A DNA stretch of 23,867 nt. Source: an uncultured Gemmatimonadota bacterium (lineage in GTDB: Bacteria; Gemmatimonadota; Gemmatimonadetes; Gemmatimonadales; GWC2-71-9). The notes under the pieces are model-generated. The model had not been told where the DNA came from, searched no databases, and saw only the letters and a program-made list of their open reading frames with translations. This document shows positions 9,650 to 22,019 of the stretch, in pieces; position 1 is the stretch's first letter, and the number at the start of each line of letters is the position of its first letter. Both the position numbers and the translations under genes were made by a program. The DNA lies in the NCBI GenBank assembly GCA_946479825.1, contig CAMLHU010000004.1, forward strand, positions 1 through 23,867, given 5' to 3'.

Positions 9650-11004
9650 GCCGCCACCAGGTCCCGCCCCACGCGGGTGATGTCGCCCGCGCCGAGCGTG
9701 AGCACCACGTCGCCGCTCCGGGCCGCCGCCGCGACCGCCTCGGGGACGGTCTCGCGCTCCGGCGCGAAGGCCACCGTCCCGCCGCTCTGCGCCACGGCGT
9801 CGGCCACCCGCCGCCCGCTCACCCCCGCGATCGGCCGCTCACGCGCGGCGTAGATCTCGGTCACGATCGCGAGGTCCGCCGCCGCCAGCGCCCGGCCCAT
9901 CGCCTCGGCGTGGCGCTCGGTACGCGAGTACAGGTGCGGCTGGAACACCGCCACCAGGCGCCGCCCCGGGAACGCCTGCCGCGCCGCCTGCAGCGTCGCC
10001 GCGAGCTCCGAGGGGTGGTGCGCGTAGTCGTCCACGAAGGTGACCCCGCGCGCCTCGCCCAGCCGTTCGAACCGCCGCCCCGCCCCGGTGAACCGCCCGA
10101 GCGCCTCGAGCGCCGGCTCGACCGGCGCCCCGAGCGCCGCCACCACGCCGAGCGCGGCGGTCGCGTTGCGGATGTTGTGGAGCCCCGGGACCTGCAGCCG
10201 GAGCAGCACCGTCCGCCCGTCGGGCAACCGGATGCGGGCGACCGACCCCGCCGGTCCCGCGTCCACCGTCACGATCCGCACGTCGGCGTCGCCCTGCCCG
10301 AACCGCCACACCGGCACCTTGAGCCGGGCCGCCACCCGCGCCGCCCCCGGGTCGTCGGTCCCGAGCAGCGCCCGCTCCGCCCGGTCGGCGAAGGTCACGA
10401 ACGCCGCTTCCAGCGCCTCGAGCGAGCCGTAGCACTCGAGATGGTCGGCCTCGACGTTGTTGACCACCGCGATGGCGGGACGGAGCGCCAGGAAGGCCTG
10501 GTCGTATTCGTCCGCCTCGACCACGAAGAGCCGGTCGCAGGCGAGCAGCGCGTTGCCGCCCCAGGCCGCCACCCGTCCCCCCGCGACCCCGGTCGGGTCG
10601 AGCCCCGCCGCCGCCAGCGCCTCGGTGACCATCACGGTCGTGGTGGTCTTGCCGTGCGTCCCGCTCACCCCCACCACCCGGCCACCGGCCACCAGTTCGG
10701 CGAGCGCCTGCTTGCGAGGGACCACCGGGACGCCGAGCGCCCGGGCACGTACCAGTTCAGGATGATCGGTCGGGATCGCGGCGGTGACCACCACCGCGCG
10801 GGCGCCGGTCACGTGAGCGGGATCGTGGCCCGCGGTCACCGTGGCACCGAGCGCCGCTACGTCAGCGGCACCGCCTGGATCGGCATCGCACCCCGTCACC
10901 GGCACACCCCGCCGCCGGGCGATCAACGCCAGCGCACTCATGCCGGCTCCGCCGATGCCCATGAAGTGCACCGGGCGGGTATCCTCGGGTGAGAACAGAT
11001 CCAT
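9634..11004 (-). CDS. murC: UDP-N-acetylmuramate-L-alanine ligase MurC
   Basis: Cytoplasmic ATP-dependent ligase that adds the first residue, L-Ala, to UDP-MurNAc. The 456 residues show the N-terminal Rossmann motif HFMGIGGAGMSALA (13-26), the Mur-ligase P-loop GTHGKTTTT (115-123; the His is typical of MurC), EADEYD in the central domain, and VDDYAHHPSE, a MurC hallmark, in the C-terminal part. Length is normal. The ATG at 11004 has no obvious Shine-Dalgarno; the 47-nt gap upstream is richer in A and T than its surroundings and holds a weak promoter-like pair, so expression could be partly independent of the upstream genes, perhaps from a short leader. The 3' end overlaps ftsQ by 16 nt. MurC is not fused to MurB or Ddl here. 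Confidence 0.98.
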   Translation of the reverse strand: MDLFSPEDTRPVHFMGIGGAGMSALALIARRRGVPVTGCDADPGGAADVAALGATVTAGHDPAHVTGARAVVVTAAIPTDHPELVRARALGVPVVPRKQALAELVAGGRVVGVSGTHGKTTTTVMVTEALAAAGLDPTGVAGGRVAAWGGNALLACDRLFVVEADEYDQAFLALRPAIAVVNNVEADHLECYGSLEALEAAFVTFADRAERALLGTDDPGAARVAARLKVPVWRFGQGDADVRIVTVDAGPAGSVARIRLPDGRTVLLRLQVPGLHNIRNATAALGVVAALGAPVEPALEALGRFTGAGRRFERLGEARGVTFVDDYAHHPSELAATLQAARQAFPGRRLVAVFQPHLYSRTERHAEAMGRALAAADLAIVTEIYAARERPIAGVSGRRVADAVAQSGGTVAFAPERETVPEAVAAAARSGDVVLTLGAGDITRVGRDLVAAWRAS

Positions 11005-11051: not shown

Positions 11052-12161
11052 TCAAGCGTGAAGAAGCGTCAAACAATGCGACACAATCTCGGCTGCGGCG
11101 TTCGGTCGGCCCCGGTCGAGGGCGCGGTCGGCCATCGCCCGACGGCGCGGCTCGTCTCCCAGCAATTCGGCGACGAGACGGCCGAGTGAATCGGCGCTGA
11201 GTTCCCGCTGGGGCAGGTGCCGGGCGGCTCCGGCCGCCTCCAGGGCCACCGCGTTGGCGGTCTGGTGGTCGTCCGCGGCCGTGGGGAGCGGCACGATGAT
11301 GGACGGGATCCCCCACGCGCAGAGCTCGGCGCCGGTCATCATCCCGCCCCGGGCCACGGCGAGGTCCGCCACCGCGTACGCGTCGGCGATCGGATCGAGG
11401 AAGTCGAACACCTGCACCGCCGGTGGCCGGTGATAGTGCCGGTAACGCTCGTAGGTCCCGCGGCCGGTGGCCCAGAGCACGGTGACCCCCGCCGCGCGCC
11501 CGGCGTCGATCCACCCTGCCACCGCGTCGTTGATCGGCACCGCCCCCTGGCTGGCCCCGGTGACGAGCAGGACCCGCTCGGACCCGGTGAGGCCGAAGCG
11601 CTTGAGCGCCGCCGCCCGACGCGAGCGATCGGGTGGGGCGATCGGGTTACCCGTATCGAAGATCCTGGTGTTGGGGCCGGGAGTGAGGCGCGCCCGGGCC
11701 TCCGGGAGCCCCAGGTAGATGTGGTCCACCTGCCCGGCGAGCCGCCGGGTGGCGAGCCCCGGCCAGGCGTTCTGCTCCTGGATGGCGGTGGGGATCCCGC
11801 GCCGCGCCGCCCACCAGACCGCGGGGCCGGACGCGTACCCGCCGGTCCCGATCACCAGCGCGGGCCGGCGCTCGGCGAAGATCCGCCGCAGCATCAGGAG
11901 CGACCGCGCGGCGTGCCACGGCAGCTTGACGTTGCGCCAGACCCGCTGGCGGAAGAGCGGCTGGATCGGGAGGAGGTGATACGGGAAATCCCGCTGCGGC
12001 AGCAGCCAGCGCTCCACCCCGCGCTCGGCGCCGACCAGCACCGGCTGGAGGTCGGGCCGCGCCGTACGCAGCGCCGTCGCGATGGCCAAAGCCGGCATCA
12101 GGTGCCCGCCGGTGCCGCCGCCGGCGATGAGGATGGTGGTGGGTCGCGGGTCGTGGGTCAT
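11052..12161 (-). CDS. murG: UDP-GlcNAc-undecaprenyl-PP-MurNAc-pentapeptide transferase MurG
   Basis: Membrane-associated GT-B glycosyltransferase (family GT28) that adds GlcNAc to lipid I, making lipid II. From the ATG at 12161 it has 369 residues: GGGTGGH (14-20), GTGGYASGP (105-113), QEQNAWPG (128-135), TGASQGA (201-207, usually GGSQGA), GGMMTGAEL (272-280, with the conserved E279) and DDHQTANA (297-304). The start is unusual: the ATG and the first eight or so residues (MTHDPRPTT) are encoded by heptamer repeats, the core beginning at ILIAGGG, and no Shine-Dalgarno is visible. The frame remains open back to a GTG at 12248, which would add a 29-residue, repeat-encoded tail; I chose 12161 because family members begin close to the glycine loop. 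It is the only gene of the cluster with real intergenic gaps on both sides (132 and 47 nt). Confidence 0.96.
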   Translation of the reverse strand: MTHDPRPTTILIAGGGTGGHLMPALAIATALRTARPDLQPVLVGAERGVERWLLPQRDFPYHLLPIQPLFRQRVWRNVKLPWHAARSLLMLRRIFAERRPALVIGTGGYASGPAVWWAARRGIPTAIQEQNAWPGLATRRLAGQVDHIYLGLPEARARLTPGPNTRIFDTGNPIAPPDRSRRAAALKRFGLTGSERVLLVTGASQGAVPINDAVAGWIDAGRAAGVTVLWATGRGTYERYRHYHRPPAVQVFDFLDPIADAYAVADLAVARGGMMTGAELCAWGIPSIIVPLPTAADDHQTANAVALEAAGAARHLPQRELSADSLGRLVAELLGDEPRRRAMADRALDRGRPNAAAEIVSHCLTLLHA

Positions 12162-12215
12162 GCGTCGCGGGTCATGGGTCGTGGGTCGTGGGTCGTGGGT
12201 CGGTGGTCGTGGGTC
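12139..12215. repeat. Tandem heptamer array A (GTGGGTC, 11 units)
   Basis: Eleven contiguous 7-bp units occupy exactly 77 bp. Read on the plus strand the consensus is GTGGGTC; six units are exact (12139, 12153, 12181, 12188, 12195 and 12209) and the variants are GCGGGTC twice, ATGCGTC, ATGGGTC and GGTGGTC. The phase is kept throughout with no insertions. The three units at 12139-12159 lie inside murG, and the ATGCGTC unit with the base after 12159 provides the murG start codon. On the plus strand the GGG runs recur every 7 nt, giving a G-quadruplex-type motif. The array directly follows (on the minus strand) a second, unrelated heptamer array. Confidence 0.95.
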
Positions 12216-12240
12216 TCGGATCTCCCCGCGCCCCCGCGCA

Positions 12241-12303
12241 CCGCTCACCGTTTACCGCTCACCGTTTACCGTTCACCGTTTACCGTTCACCGTTTACCGT
12301 CTA
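12241..12303. repeat. Tandem heptamer array B (CCGTTTA/CCGTTCA, 9 units)
   Basis: Nine contiguous 7-bp units occupy exactly 63 bp on the plus strand. They alternate between CCGYTCA (CCGCTCA or CCGTTCA) and CCGTTTA, so a 14-bp higher-order period is visible; the last unit is CCGTCTA. The sequence is unrelated to array A, which begins 25 bp away. The ftsW stop codon TAA (plus tta at 12294-12296) lies inside the array, and the last two units encode the final residues of FtsW. The array is much less GC-rich than its surroundings. Tandem heptanucleotides of this type are known as STRR elements in filamentous cyanobacteria; whether these are related in mechanism is not known. Confidence 0.95.
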
Positions 12304-13448
12304 TCCCCCACCCGCACCTTCCCCCGCTGCCGGCCCACGCTGAGCAGGATGCCGGTGGCGAGCAGCGTGATGAGCAGGCTCGAGCGCCCGTAGGACATGA
12401 ACGGCAGCGTGAGGCCGGTGGTCGGCATCAGGCCCAGGGTCACCGCCATGTGCAGGAAGGCGGTGATCCCGACCAGGCTCGTCACCCCGACCGCCAGCAG
12501 CTGACCGAACGCGTCAGGGGCGGTCCGCGCGATGCGGAGCCCGAGCCAGACGAAGAGCCCGAACAGCAGCACCACCACGCACACCCCCACGAACCCCCAC
12601 TCCTCGCCGATGGTGCTGAAGAGGAAGTCGGAGTAGGCGTACGGCAGGTAGCCCAGCTTCTGCTGCCCCTCGCCGAACCCGACGCCCAAGAGCCGGCCCG
12701 ACCCGACGCCGACCAGCGACTGGGTGATCTGGAAGCTCGCCTGGCTCGACGCTTCGCCGGGGTTGAGGAAGGTCATGAGTCGGGCGGCGCGGTACTGGGT
12801 GTCCACGATCTTGTGCCACACCAGCACCATCCCGCCCATCCCGAGCACCAGGAAGTGCCCGATCTTGGCCCCGGCCGAGAACAGGACCACCCCGCCCAGG
12901 AACGCGACCAGCGTCGCCATCGAGAGGTTGGGCTCGAGGAAGATCAGCAGCGAGATGAACCCGACCACGAGCACGACCGGCAGCACGCCCTTCTTGAACT
13001 CGCGGATCTGCTCGCCCTTCTTGGCCACGAGCATCGCGGTCCAGACCACCACGGCGAGCCGGGCGAGCTCGGAGGGCTGGAAGTTGATCGGGCCGACGTC
13101 CACCCAGCGGCGCGCCCCGTTGAGCGACGGCGCGATGCGGTGGGTGAACGGGAGCAGCGGGATGAGGAGCGCCAACGCCGTGACGCCGAGCAGTGGCCAC
13201 GCCAGCTGGCGCCACTTGTGGTAGTCCATCCGCGCCGCGATCAGGAGGAGGATCCCCCCCGCCACCGCCCCGGTGAGCTGCCGGAACGCGAACGACAGGC
13301 CGACGTTGACCCCGGCGCGGTTGGTGATGAGGCTGGCGGCGCCGTAGCTCGACGCGATGCCGAAGACCACCAGCGTGGCGGTGACGACGGCGAGGAGCCG
13401 GGTCTCCCACCGCAGCTCGCCGGGGTGCCGGACGACCGGCTCGCTCAC
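12294..13448 (-). CDS. ftsW: Septal peptidoglycan glycosyltransferase FtsW (SEDS family)
   Basis: Polytopic SEDS-family enzyme that polymerises lipid II at the septum together with FtsI. The 384 residues start at a GTG (13448) overlapping the murD stop as GTGA. About ten hydrophobic segments are seen. SEDS motifs: NGARRWVDVGPINFQPSEL (110-128), LEPNLSMATL (171-180; many FtsW proteins have PDxGT here), LPYAYSDFLFSTIGEEWG (268-285, with the catalytic Asp at D274) and MPTTGLTLPFMSYGRSSLL (341-359). Length fits the family. The C-terminal residues RVGDRR and the TAA stop lie in and next to a heptamer tandem array, so the present C-terminus may have been set by repeat expansion. The longer open frame upstream of 13448 is in murD and is not used. 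Identification is secure. Confidence 0.97.
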   Translation of the reverse strand: MSEPVVRHPGELRWETRLLAVVTATLVVFGIASSYGAASLITNRAGVNVGLSFAFRQLTGAVAGGILLLIAARMDYHKWRQLAWPLLGVTALALLIPLLPFTHRIAPSLNGARRWVDVGPINFQPSELARLAVVVWTAMLVAKKGEQIREFKKGVLPVVLVVGFISLLIFLEPNLSMATLVAFLGGVVLFSAGAKIGHFLVLGMGGMVLVWHKIVDTQYRAARLMTFLNPGEASSQASFQITQSLVGVGSGRLLGVGFGEGQQKLGYLPYAYSDFLFSTIGEEWGFVGVCVVVLLFGLFVWLGLRIARTAPDAFGQLLAVGVTSLVGITAFLHMAVTLGLMPTTGLTLPFMSYGRSSLLITLLATGILLSVGRQRGKVRVGDRR

Positions 13449-14794
13449 ATCGCCTCCACGGCGGCCCGGAACTGCGCCCCGCGGTCCTCGTAGTTGCGGA
13501 ACATGTCGTAGCTCGAGCAGGCCGGGGAGAGCAGCACCGCGTCGCCCGGCCGGGTGAGCTCGCGCGCCTGGCCCAGCACGTCGGCGAAGTCGCCGCCGCG
13601 CACCACGCGCACCCGGTCCTTGAGGTCGGCCTCGACCAGGGCGGCCGATTCGCCGTACGCGATCACCGCGCGGCACCGGCCGCCGAACCCGTCCGCCAGG
13701 CGGGTGTAGGGCTCGCCCTTGTGGCGCCCGCCGAGCAGGAGCACGAACGGCCGCGTCATTCCGCGGACCGCCACGTCGGTCGAGGCGACGTTGGTCGCCT
13801 TGGAGTCGTTGATCCAGAGCACCCCGCCGACCTCGCGCACCGGTTCCATCCGGTGCGGCAGCGCGCGGAAGCTCCGGAGCCCCTCGGCGATCCGCCGCAG
13901 GTCGCCGCCCGCCTGCACCGCCGCGAGCACCGCCGCCAGCGCGTTGGCCACGTTGTGGTCGCCCAGCAGCGGGAGCTCGTCGCGCCGGAGCACCGGCACG
14001 TCCGCCAGCATCAGGCGCCCGCCGGCCCGGTCGTACCACGCGTCGGCCCGCCCCGTGAGCGAGAACCGAAGGTGGGTCCCCGCCACGCCGGCGGTCATCC
14101 GCACCACCTCGGCGTCGTCGGCGTTGGACACCCACACCGACCCGGGGCCCGCGTTCCGGAACATCCGGGCCTTGTCGCCATAGTAGTCCTCGAGCCGCGC
14201 GTAGCGGTCGAGGTGGTCCGGCGCCAGGTTGGTGAGCATCCCCACCGTGGGCCGGACGTGCGGCATGTCGTGGAGCTGGAAACTCGAGAGCTCCACCGCG
14301 AGCCACTCCGGCGCCGGCGACTCGAGCGCCACCTCGCACACCGCGCGGCCGATGTTGCCGGCGGTGCCGGCGCGCTTGCCGATCGCCGCGAGGAGGTGCC
14401 CGGTGAGCGCGGTGGTGGTGGTCTTGCCGTTGGTGCCGGTGATGCAGACGGTCCGCGTCCCGCGAAGCTCGAGGAGCCCCACGTCCGCCTCGGCGATCAC
14501 CGGCACGCCGGCGCGGCCGGCGGCCTGGAGCGGCGGCGCGTCGGGGGGCACGCCGGGCGAGACCACCACGGCCTGCGCCCGGGCGATCCGCCCGAGGTCG
14601 TGCCGGCCGGTCTCCACGTCGGCGCCCTCGCCCCGGAGGGCCTCCAGCTCGCGCTCCCCCGCCCCGGCGCCGGCGTCGCTGGCGTACACCGGCACGCCGC
14701 GGCGCCGGAGCAGGCGCGTCGCCGCGACGCCGCTCCGGCCGAGCCCCACCACCGCCACCTCGCGGCCGTCACGCCGCCACTGGTCGAGGATCAT
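13445..14794 (-). CDS. murD: UDP-N-acetylmuramoyl-L-alanine-D-glutamate ligase MurD
   Basis: Cytoplasmic Mur ligase that adds D-Glu to UDP-MurNAc-L-Ala. From the ATG at 14794 it has 449 residues: a Rossmann-like N-domain (VAVVGLGRSGVAA, 13-25), the P-loop GTNGKTTTT (120-128), GNIGRAV, LSSFQLHDM, NLAPDHLDRY, and the MurD-typical NDSKATN and LLLGGRHKG in the C-terminal half, followed by LLSPACSSYDMFRNYEDRG, where the SPACASxDxF motif of MurD is clear. The start overlaps the mraY stop as ATGA; the much longer open frame upstream is mraY/murF sequence read out of frame. The stop overlaps the ftsW GTG. Everything expected is intact. Confidence 0.98.
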   Translation of the reverse strand: MILDQWRRDGREVAVVGLGRSGVAATRLLRRRGVPVYASDAGAGAGERELEALRGEGADVETGRHDLGRIARAQAVVVSPGVPPDAPPLQAAGRAGVPVIAEADVGLLELRGTRTVCITGTNGKTTTTALTGHLLAAIGKRAGTAGNIGRAVCEVALESPAPEWLAVELSSFQLHDMPHVRPTVGMLTNLAPDHLDRYARLEDYYGDKARMFRNAGPGSVWVSNADDAEVVRMTAGVAGTHLRFSLTGRADAWYDRAGGRLMLADVPVLRRDELPLLGDHNVANALAAVLAAVQAGGDLRRIAEGLRSFRALPHRMEPVREVGGVLWINDSKATNVASTDVAVRGMTRPFVLLLGGRHKGEPYTRLADGFGGRCRAVIAYGESAALVEADLKDRVRVVRGGDFADVLGQARELTRPGDAVLLSPACSSYDMFRNYEDRGAQFRAAVEAM

Positions 14795-21944: not shown

Positions 21945-22019
21945 CGGGGCTGACGGGGCTCGAACCCGCGACCTCCGCAGTGACAGTGCGGCACTCTAAC
22001 CAAGCTGAGCTACAGCCCC
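21945..22019 (-). tRNA. tRNA-Asp, anticodon GTC
   Basis: Folds as a full cloverleaf on the minus strand: acceptor GGGGCTG with CAGCCCC, D-stem GCTC/GAGT (one G-T pair), anticodon stem CCGCA/TGCGG around loop CTGTCAC, variable AGGTC, and T-arm GCGGG-TTCGAGC-CCCGT. The loop gives anticodon GTC, reading Asp codons GAC and GAT. It is 75 nt including the discriminator G; the CCA end is not encoded and must be added by the CCA-adding enzyme. It lies 50 nt downstream of the TPR gene and 66 nt upstream of rsmH. Confidence 0.97.

Follow-up and report, generated by a model that had tools for sequence, protein, structure and literature searches.

This locus raises the question how two tandem arrays of seven-base units with unlike sequences came to lie side by side between two essential genes, ftsW and murG, and whether they form one element or two. 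The window, by which we mean the whole stretch of 23,867 nucleotides that was analyzed from an uncultured Gemmatimonadota bacterium, carries a dcw cluster on its minus strand, and its MraY is 78-79% identical to MraY of three Gemmatimonadota MAGs. The open reading frames matched by the HMMs for FtsW (12294-14339, minus strand) and MurG (11052-12248, minus strand) both score slightly below the cut-offs of the models. The initial annotation had described the junctions elsewhere in the cluster as compressed to overlapping codons. This is correct for three or four junctions near ftsW-murG, which are 4-nt overlaps, but others are gaps of 6 and 47 nt (sizes based on ORF starts, with the gene between mraY and ftsW taken from the gene call). 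The sole match to Rfam in the window at the gathering threshold is a minus-strand tRNA gene at 21945-22019. The features of the junction are collected in Table 1.

Table 1. Genes, codons and repeat arrays at the ftsW-murG junction of the window.
Feature	Position	Strand	Evidence and remarks
murG	11052..12161	-	TIGR01133, E 1e-68, 232 bits, under the model's own cut-off of 250
murG start codon ATG, most likely	12159..12161	-	Gene call, reading frame and N-termini of homologues; lies in a variant unit of array A
Array A	12135..12215	-	TRF; gene-strand unit GACCCAC (plus-strand GGTCGTG); 11.6 units
Spacer, 24 nt	12216..12239	-	Gap between arrays A and B; loop position of an inverted pair
Array B	12240..12300	-	TRF and sequence; gene-strand units TGAACGG/TAAACGG/TGAGCGG; 8.7 units
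ftsW stop codon TAA	12294..12296	-	End of the ORF; within array B, in its first unit
ftsW	12294..13448	-	TIGR02614, E 5.8e-95, 318 bits, under the model's own cut-off of 337.5; start from gene call

Both arrays proved to be genuine heptamer repeats. TRF described array A with period 7, 11.6 copies, 79% matches and 0% indels, and array B with period 14, 4.4 copies (corresponding to 8.7 heptamers), 97% matches and 0% indels, the period of 14 bp resulting from the ordered alternation of TTTA and TTCA heptamers. Self-matching at lag 7 gave scores of 29 for array A and 27 for array B, well above the best score of 13 and the mean of 9.0 obtained with 100 dinucleotide shuffles of the whole window, and no third segment of the window scored 10 or more. 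A further period-7 run at 10678-10693, which TRF listed at its lowest score setting, is too short to count with its 16 bp and 2.3 copies. Thus, the existence of the arrays and their strict 7-bp phase, as initially annotated, were confirmed, and only their extents needed correction, since the gap measures 24 instead of 25 bp and array B ends at 12300 instead of 12303. In the sense of the genes, array B is G-rich and adjoins the end of ftsW, and array A is C-rich and continues into murG; on the plus strand, GGG is present in most units of array A and in none of array B. The description of the two arrays as unrelated holds at the sequence level, as the best rotation of the array A unit matches the reverse complement of the array B unit at 3/7 positions (aligned by hand).

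Frame translation in the sense of the genes revealed stops in all three frames of array B, and in array A an open murG frame with one stop in each of the other two frames. Array A likely encodes the N-terminus of MurG with the first residues MTHDPRP, and further in-frame starts are present upstream of the ATG given in Table 1. Among the 11 MurG homologues with at least 76% identity (P0003-P0013), four have N-termini resembling a translated array A, namely P0006 (MTHDPRP), P0007 (MTHDPRL), P0008 (MTRDPRP) and P0011 (MTLDPRLSTPDSRPP), two are doubtful (P0004 and P0010) and five are without such a sequence. The MurG of P0003, which is 98% identical, begins with VSGGENARRPVTIL and the array peptide MTHDPRP is absent. 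Judging from these protein sequences, array A may be older than the species of the window, and in this case P0003 would have lost it. Phase variation of MurG by changes in unit number was considered and set aside, because it appears unlikely for an essential enzyme and because translation probably starts within the array.

The window has the layout of a G-rich arm after the upstream gene, a spacer and a C-rich arm before the next gene. In an uncontrolled prediction, the fold of this pair looked periodic, but the shuffle control ruled out a hairpin: all 200 shuffles folded better than the pair (z +2.45). The two arms come from different families, TGAACGG/TAAACGG and GACCCAC, so that no hairpin forms, and nothing in the window therefore supports a role at the RNA level. 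A search for intrinsic terminators, defined as a hairpin followed by a T-run, found no site between 11900 and 12600.

The occurrence of heptamer arrays in relatives had been set as a test of the initial annotation, and such arrays were indeed found at gene junctions and at ftsW-murG itself, in 19 of 107 other readable junctions. The survey comprised three sets, with 5 positives among the 23 readable junctions of the first 31 loci, one (locus L165 of genome G409) among 26 of 30 further loci, and 13 among 59 of 60 regions; in unreadable loci, one of the genes was missing. G002, which is negative, was read twice and enters the total of 107 once; it forms the only identical pair in the FtsW tree. 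The 60 regions followed the rank order of a MurG search, skipping genomes that had already been sampled, with the exceptions of G035 (positive) and G365 (negative), which were chosen out of rank. At array-free junctions, the genes overlap or are separated by gaps of up to about 76 nt; L141 and L159, which were counted as array-free, contain 8-bp runs that were seen by eye. The junction element of L165 in G409 is built from the units CCGTTCA/CCGTTTA, as in array B, and has matched arms.

On the FtsW tree, 18 positives could be placed (L324, also positive, was too short), of which 17 fall into a single clade of 23 rows with an SH-aLRT support of 100, the other one being G409. In this clade, 17 of 22 assessable rows are array-positive at the junction, whereas L309, L010, L333, L312 and L320 are without an element; L006 ends inside ftsW and was not scored. 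The window and G409 are part of another clade of 39 rows, and none of its other 37 members has a heptamer array at the junction with the threshold used. In L012 and L007, the dcw cluster contains another heptamer element with matched arms (L012:4526-4630 and L007:4537-4638), which is probably located at murE-murF, about 1.4 kb upstream of mraY.

Adjacent arrays in relatives are mostly arranged as inverted pairs, since 39 of 41 such pairs were reverse complements at 5/7 positions or better; of the 139 arrays in that set, 55 were without a neighbor within 150 bp. The matching of arms was perfect in 29 of 35 adjacent pairs of the array-rich clade, compared to 9.8 on average and no more than 21 in any of 2000 shuffles. 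This sample combined 18 junction loci with 30 loci retrieved by array pattern, was taken with no similarity filter and overlaps the set of 41 pairs. Both arms of an element carry the same unit variants, which differ from element to element within a genome. Of the relatives' elements, only those of L012 and of L165 in G409 were folded against shuffles, and both formed strong hairpins with z-values of -9.9 and -7.0, respectively. G409 contains four inverted pairs, one in the family of array A and three in that of array B, with gaps of 19, 23, 29 and 62 nt, and 31 of its 39 arrays are unpartnered. A G-rich array followed by a C-rich array on the plus strand was seen in 27 of 30 two-array elements, and the window pair has the same order.

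The loops of junction elements in the array-rich clade resemble those of elements at other loci, with a mean score of 18.9 against 14.4 for shuffled loops and scores of at least 22 in 30% against 3%. Loops with array remnants (5 of 15 at junctions and 5 of 20 elsewhere) were dropped from this comparison, and the likeness was visible before dropping them as well. This sequence likeness hints at a common origin of the clade loops. Matches to loops of other genomes were few and weak. By eye, the loops of L102, L321 and L338 have a semi-conserved quasi-palindromic core around GAAGGGGAGGTCG.

Arrays with heptamer units are dispersed in many copies in relatives such as G409 and G007. In a sample of 120 loci chosen for holding array patterns, 81 elements were distinguished, 49 with one array, 30 with two and 2 with three. 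Relative to genes called by a simple codon-model caller seeded on the dcw genes of the window, the gap holding the element was flanked by codirectional genes in 35 cases, by convergent genes in 12 and by divergent genes in 8, and the remaining elements fell within called genes (17) or at the edge of a locus (9). Of the codirectional elements, 21 of 35 start at most 10 nt from the upstream stop codon or overlap it, compared to a mean of 11.5 and a maximum of 19 in 2000 random placements; this start was found in 12 of 14 two-array elements and in 9 of 20 single arrays. Intergenic confinement is not strict, because besides the 17 of 81 elements also 10 of 21 arrays in longer stretches of G007 and 4 of 13 in those of G409 lie in called genes.

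Each of the two unit families of the window is present in relatives. Three successive CCGTTYA units were found in 12 of 395 genomes sampled from the phylum and in one of another 58, and the backwards control also matched one of the 58 (G404). The GGGTC triple matched 7 of 288 genomes of the order and its backwards control 8 of 288, so that a genome with this pattern says little about the kinship of arrays. For both window unit patterns, the count was 0/16 in the first genomes tried. Both families occur together in G409 (48 and 13 pattern matches) and G365 (34 and 5), these numbers being placements in which one long array is counted several times. A heptamer run of the array B type is also present at L391:11348-11368 on a putatively viral contig from a viral collection.

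Unit length differs among genomes. The pattern CCGY recurred every 7 bases in 149 and every 8 bases in 95 of the 288 genomes of the order; the backwards controls of these generic patterns also matched many genomes, and therefore the patterns sample only a part of the unit families. Matches to the 7-bp and 8-bp patterns numbered 50 and 0 in G409, 235 and 0 in G239, 3 and 165 in G101, 0 and 111 in G063, and 56 and 56 in G412, which is mixed. Longer stretches agreed with these counts in part and contained 12 arrays with 7-bp and one with 8-bp units in G409, none of 7, nine of 8 and four of 9 bp in G101, 20 of 7 and 13 of 10 bp in G007, and only three of 7 bp in G029. No array with a period of 5 to 13 was present in 200 kb sampled from G063, despite its 111 genome-wide 8-bp matches. 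The difference between G409 and G101 gave P = 2e-5 in Fisher's test, or 5e-4 when only G409 contigs taken by number were used, with arrays treated as independent. The stretches were partly non-blind: 4 of 20 G409 stretches on known array contigs yielded 7 of its 12 arrays, and those of G007 and G029 came from contigs already identified by pattern matches. The 10-bp units of G007 (L251-L263) are of the GGAGGTTGGT and GGGCGGTGGA types and form 13 arrays in 260 kb, in which two adjacent pairs are inverted. G239 (L361-L370) has five arrays with 12-bp and eight with 7-bp units, several of the TCTACCG type. The initial annotation had suggested one expansion mechanism acting on 7-bp units regardless of their sequence. 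The recurrence of varied heptamer sequences at junctions of relatives supports the second half of this suggestion, indicating that something favors short units whatever their sequence. However, a 7-bp rule is too narrow, because unit length varies by genome and is 7, 8, or 7 plus 10 bp.

We regard it as rather probable that the window junction is a mismatched form of a dispersed element made of inverted short-unit arrays, and the pairing of arrays A and B is probably not mere neighborhood. In relatives, such an element comprises two arrays, the first G-rich and the second C-rich and its reverse complement, with a loop of about 16-70 nt between them; its start often coincides with the upstream stop codon, and the pair can form a long hairpin. 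The arrays may grow and shrink by slippage, and the arms may be kept alike by copying across the hairpin, i.e. by template switching. Such arrays would persist mainly where genes stay intact, which is the case just after stop codons. In the lineage of the window, the arms are drawn from two families, TGAACGG for one and GACCCAC for the other, and no hairpin forms. What is left at the junction is one array that provides the stop codon of ftsW and another that likely encodes a dispensable N-terminal tail of MurG. A more far-reaching idea, which we consider unlikely, is that each genome has its own unit length, imposed by a trans-acting factor, perhaps a polymerase or a repair system, that makes and homogenizes inverted arrays of fixed unit length (7 in some genomes, 8 in others, 7 and 10 in another) from any sequence. 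Such a factor would leave its arrays just after stop codons and, in the lineage of the window, would have introduced a second family into one arm.

The main rival to a mismatched element is that two independent single heptamer arrays ended up next to each other at a junction that tolerates them and never were one element, which we judge possible but distinctly less probable. Elements with a single array are frequent (49 of 81), as are unpartnered arrays of both families in G409 (31 of 39), so that A and B may be two adjoining single arrays. The units of the window agree at no more than 3/7 positions and the pair does not fold, and the array-A-like N-termini in 4 of 11 MurGs with at least 76% identity would fit an array A that is older there. 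On the other hand, order, polarity and spacing of the window arrays are those of the inverted elements, with 27 of 30 two-array elements being G-rich and then C-rich, and in G409, which belongs to the same clade of the tree, this very junction is occupied by family B arrays with matched arms. An assembly artefact of the metagenome contig is very improbable, given that other assemblies show comparable arrays at this junction and that array B has an ordered 14-bp alternation.

Selection may also have acted on the hairpin itself, as a stabilizer of the message, an insulator of translation or a partial terminator between ftsW and murG. In relatives, the hairpin may stabilize or separate the ftsW and murG messages, and the element is kept at one junction across a clade while its units change and both arms change together, with paired elements beginning near the stop codon. 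As an explanation of the window, however, a selected regulatory hairpin seems unlikely, because the window pair has neither a hairpin nor a terminator-like site and cannot exert such a function by folding. In addition, five members of the clade are without the element, similar elements are present at many other loci, and matching arms can also be generated by the copying process itself. A mobile element of the REP or MITE type, whose arms happen to be built from short units, would account for the finding that clade loops at different loci are more alike than shuffled loops. Yet the loops of other genomes match little and weakly, and the sequence and number of units vary from copy to copy, which makes this origin more improbable still. 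We thus retain the mismatched element as the preferred reading.

The mismatched pair of the window shows that an essential junction can do without the hairpin. Related genomes have, at the same essential-gene junction, arrays that differ in sequence and have units of 7 or 8 bp, which constitutes a natural experiment. Gemmatimonadota may allow one to ask whether unit length follows particular replication or repair genes, and whether the matching of arms results from copying or from selection on the hairpin.

Short repeats of several kinds are known from other bacteria. The STRR heptamers of filamentous cyanobacteria are tandem heptamers, as are the arrays described here. REP and BIME sequences are dispersed extragenic palindromes, and REPs are small (20-40 bp) and do not form tandem 7-bp arrays; the window pair folds worse than its shuffles and thus lacks the hairpin palindrome of this class. 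Among the entries of one open library on heptamers or tandem repeats in Gemmatimonadetes/Gemmatimonadota, none appears to describe such arrays. TAACTGA heptamers were reported from Beggiatoaceae, cyanobacteria and some Bacteroidetes, and according to the available part of that report they are, like the Gemmatimonadota arrays, dispersed 7-bp direct repeats in mostly intergenic positions (PMC4679880). They differ in that one unit is common to distant lineages and is located mostly upstream of start codons, with one inverted case in the genome studied (PMC4679880). The closest resemblance is with the heptamer repeats of Xanthomonas (GGGAATC) and Nostoc (GGGGA(C/T)T), of which the accessible sections of Rehm et al. 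(2015; PMC4692102) give a description. The same source mentions heptanucleotides of Calothrix and refers to an older survey according to which heptamers are over-represented in many bacterial genomes. Like the arrays described here, the Xanthomonas and Nostoc repeats have 7-bp units, are dispersed and mostly non-coding, and lie near gene ends (PMC4692102). Polymerase slippage was only proposed as the cause of heptamer repeats in the parts of both reports available to us (PMC4692102; PMC4679880). In Xanthomonas, the arrays are mostly found between the same genes in both genomes and vary in length and sequence, and 70 (Xcc) and 75 (Xac) convergent two-array cases are listed, with no known function given in those sections (PMC4692102). 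Inverted complementary pairs are described there as frequent in Xanthomonas and few in Nostoc (PMC4692102). Paired heptamer arrays, which the initial annotation did not know from dcw clusters, are therefore already on record from Xanthomonas, and what distinguishes the window from the cases described in these sections is the mismatch of its arms. The window arrays share the tandem 7-bp units with the Xanthomonas and Nostoc kind; inverted complementarity is lacking in the window pair, with 3/7 matches and no fold, and is present in its relatives. The Xanthomonas and Nostoc units contain G-runs and form G-quadruplexes in vitro, as stated in the available text (PMC4692102). In contrast, the Gemmatimonadota arrays comprise many unit families, several per genome and many without a run of three Gs, some genomes use units of 8 or 10 bp, and the arms in the window are mismatched. 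The elements of Gemmatimonadota are of one kind with the Xanthomonas heptamers, with a multitude of unit families, units of several lengths and arms that vary in concert.
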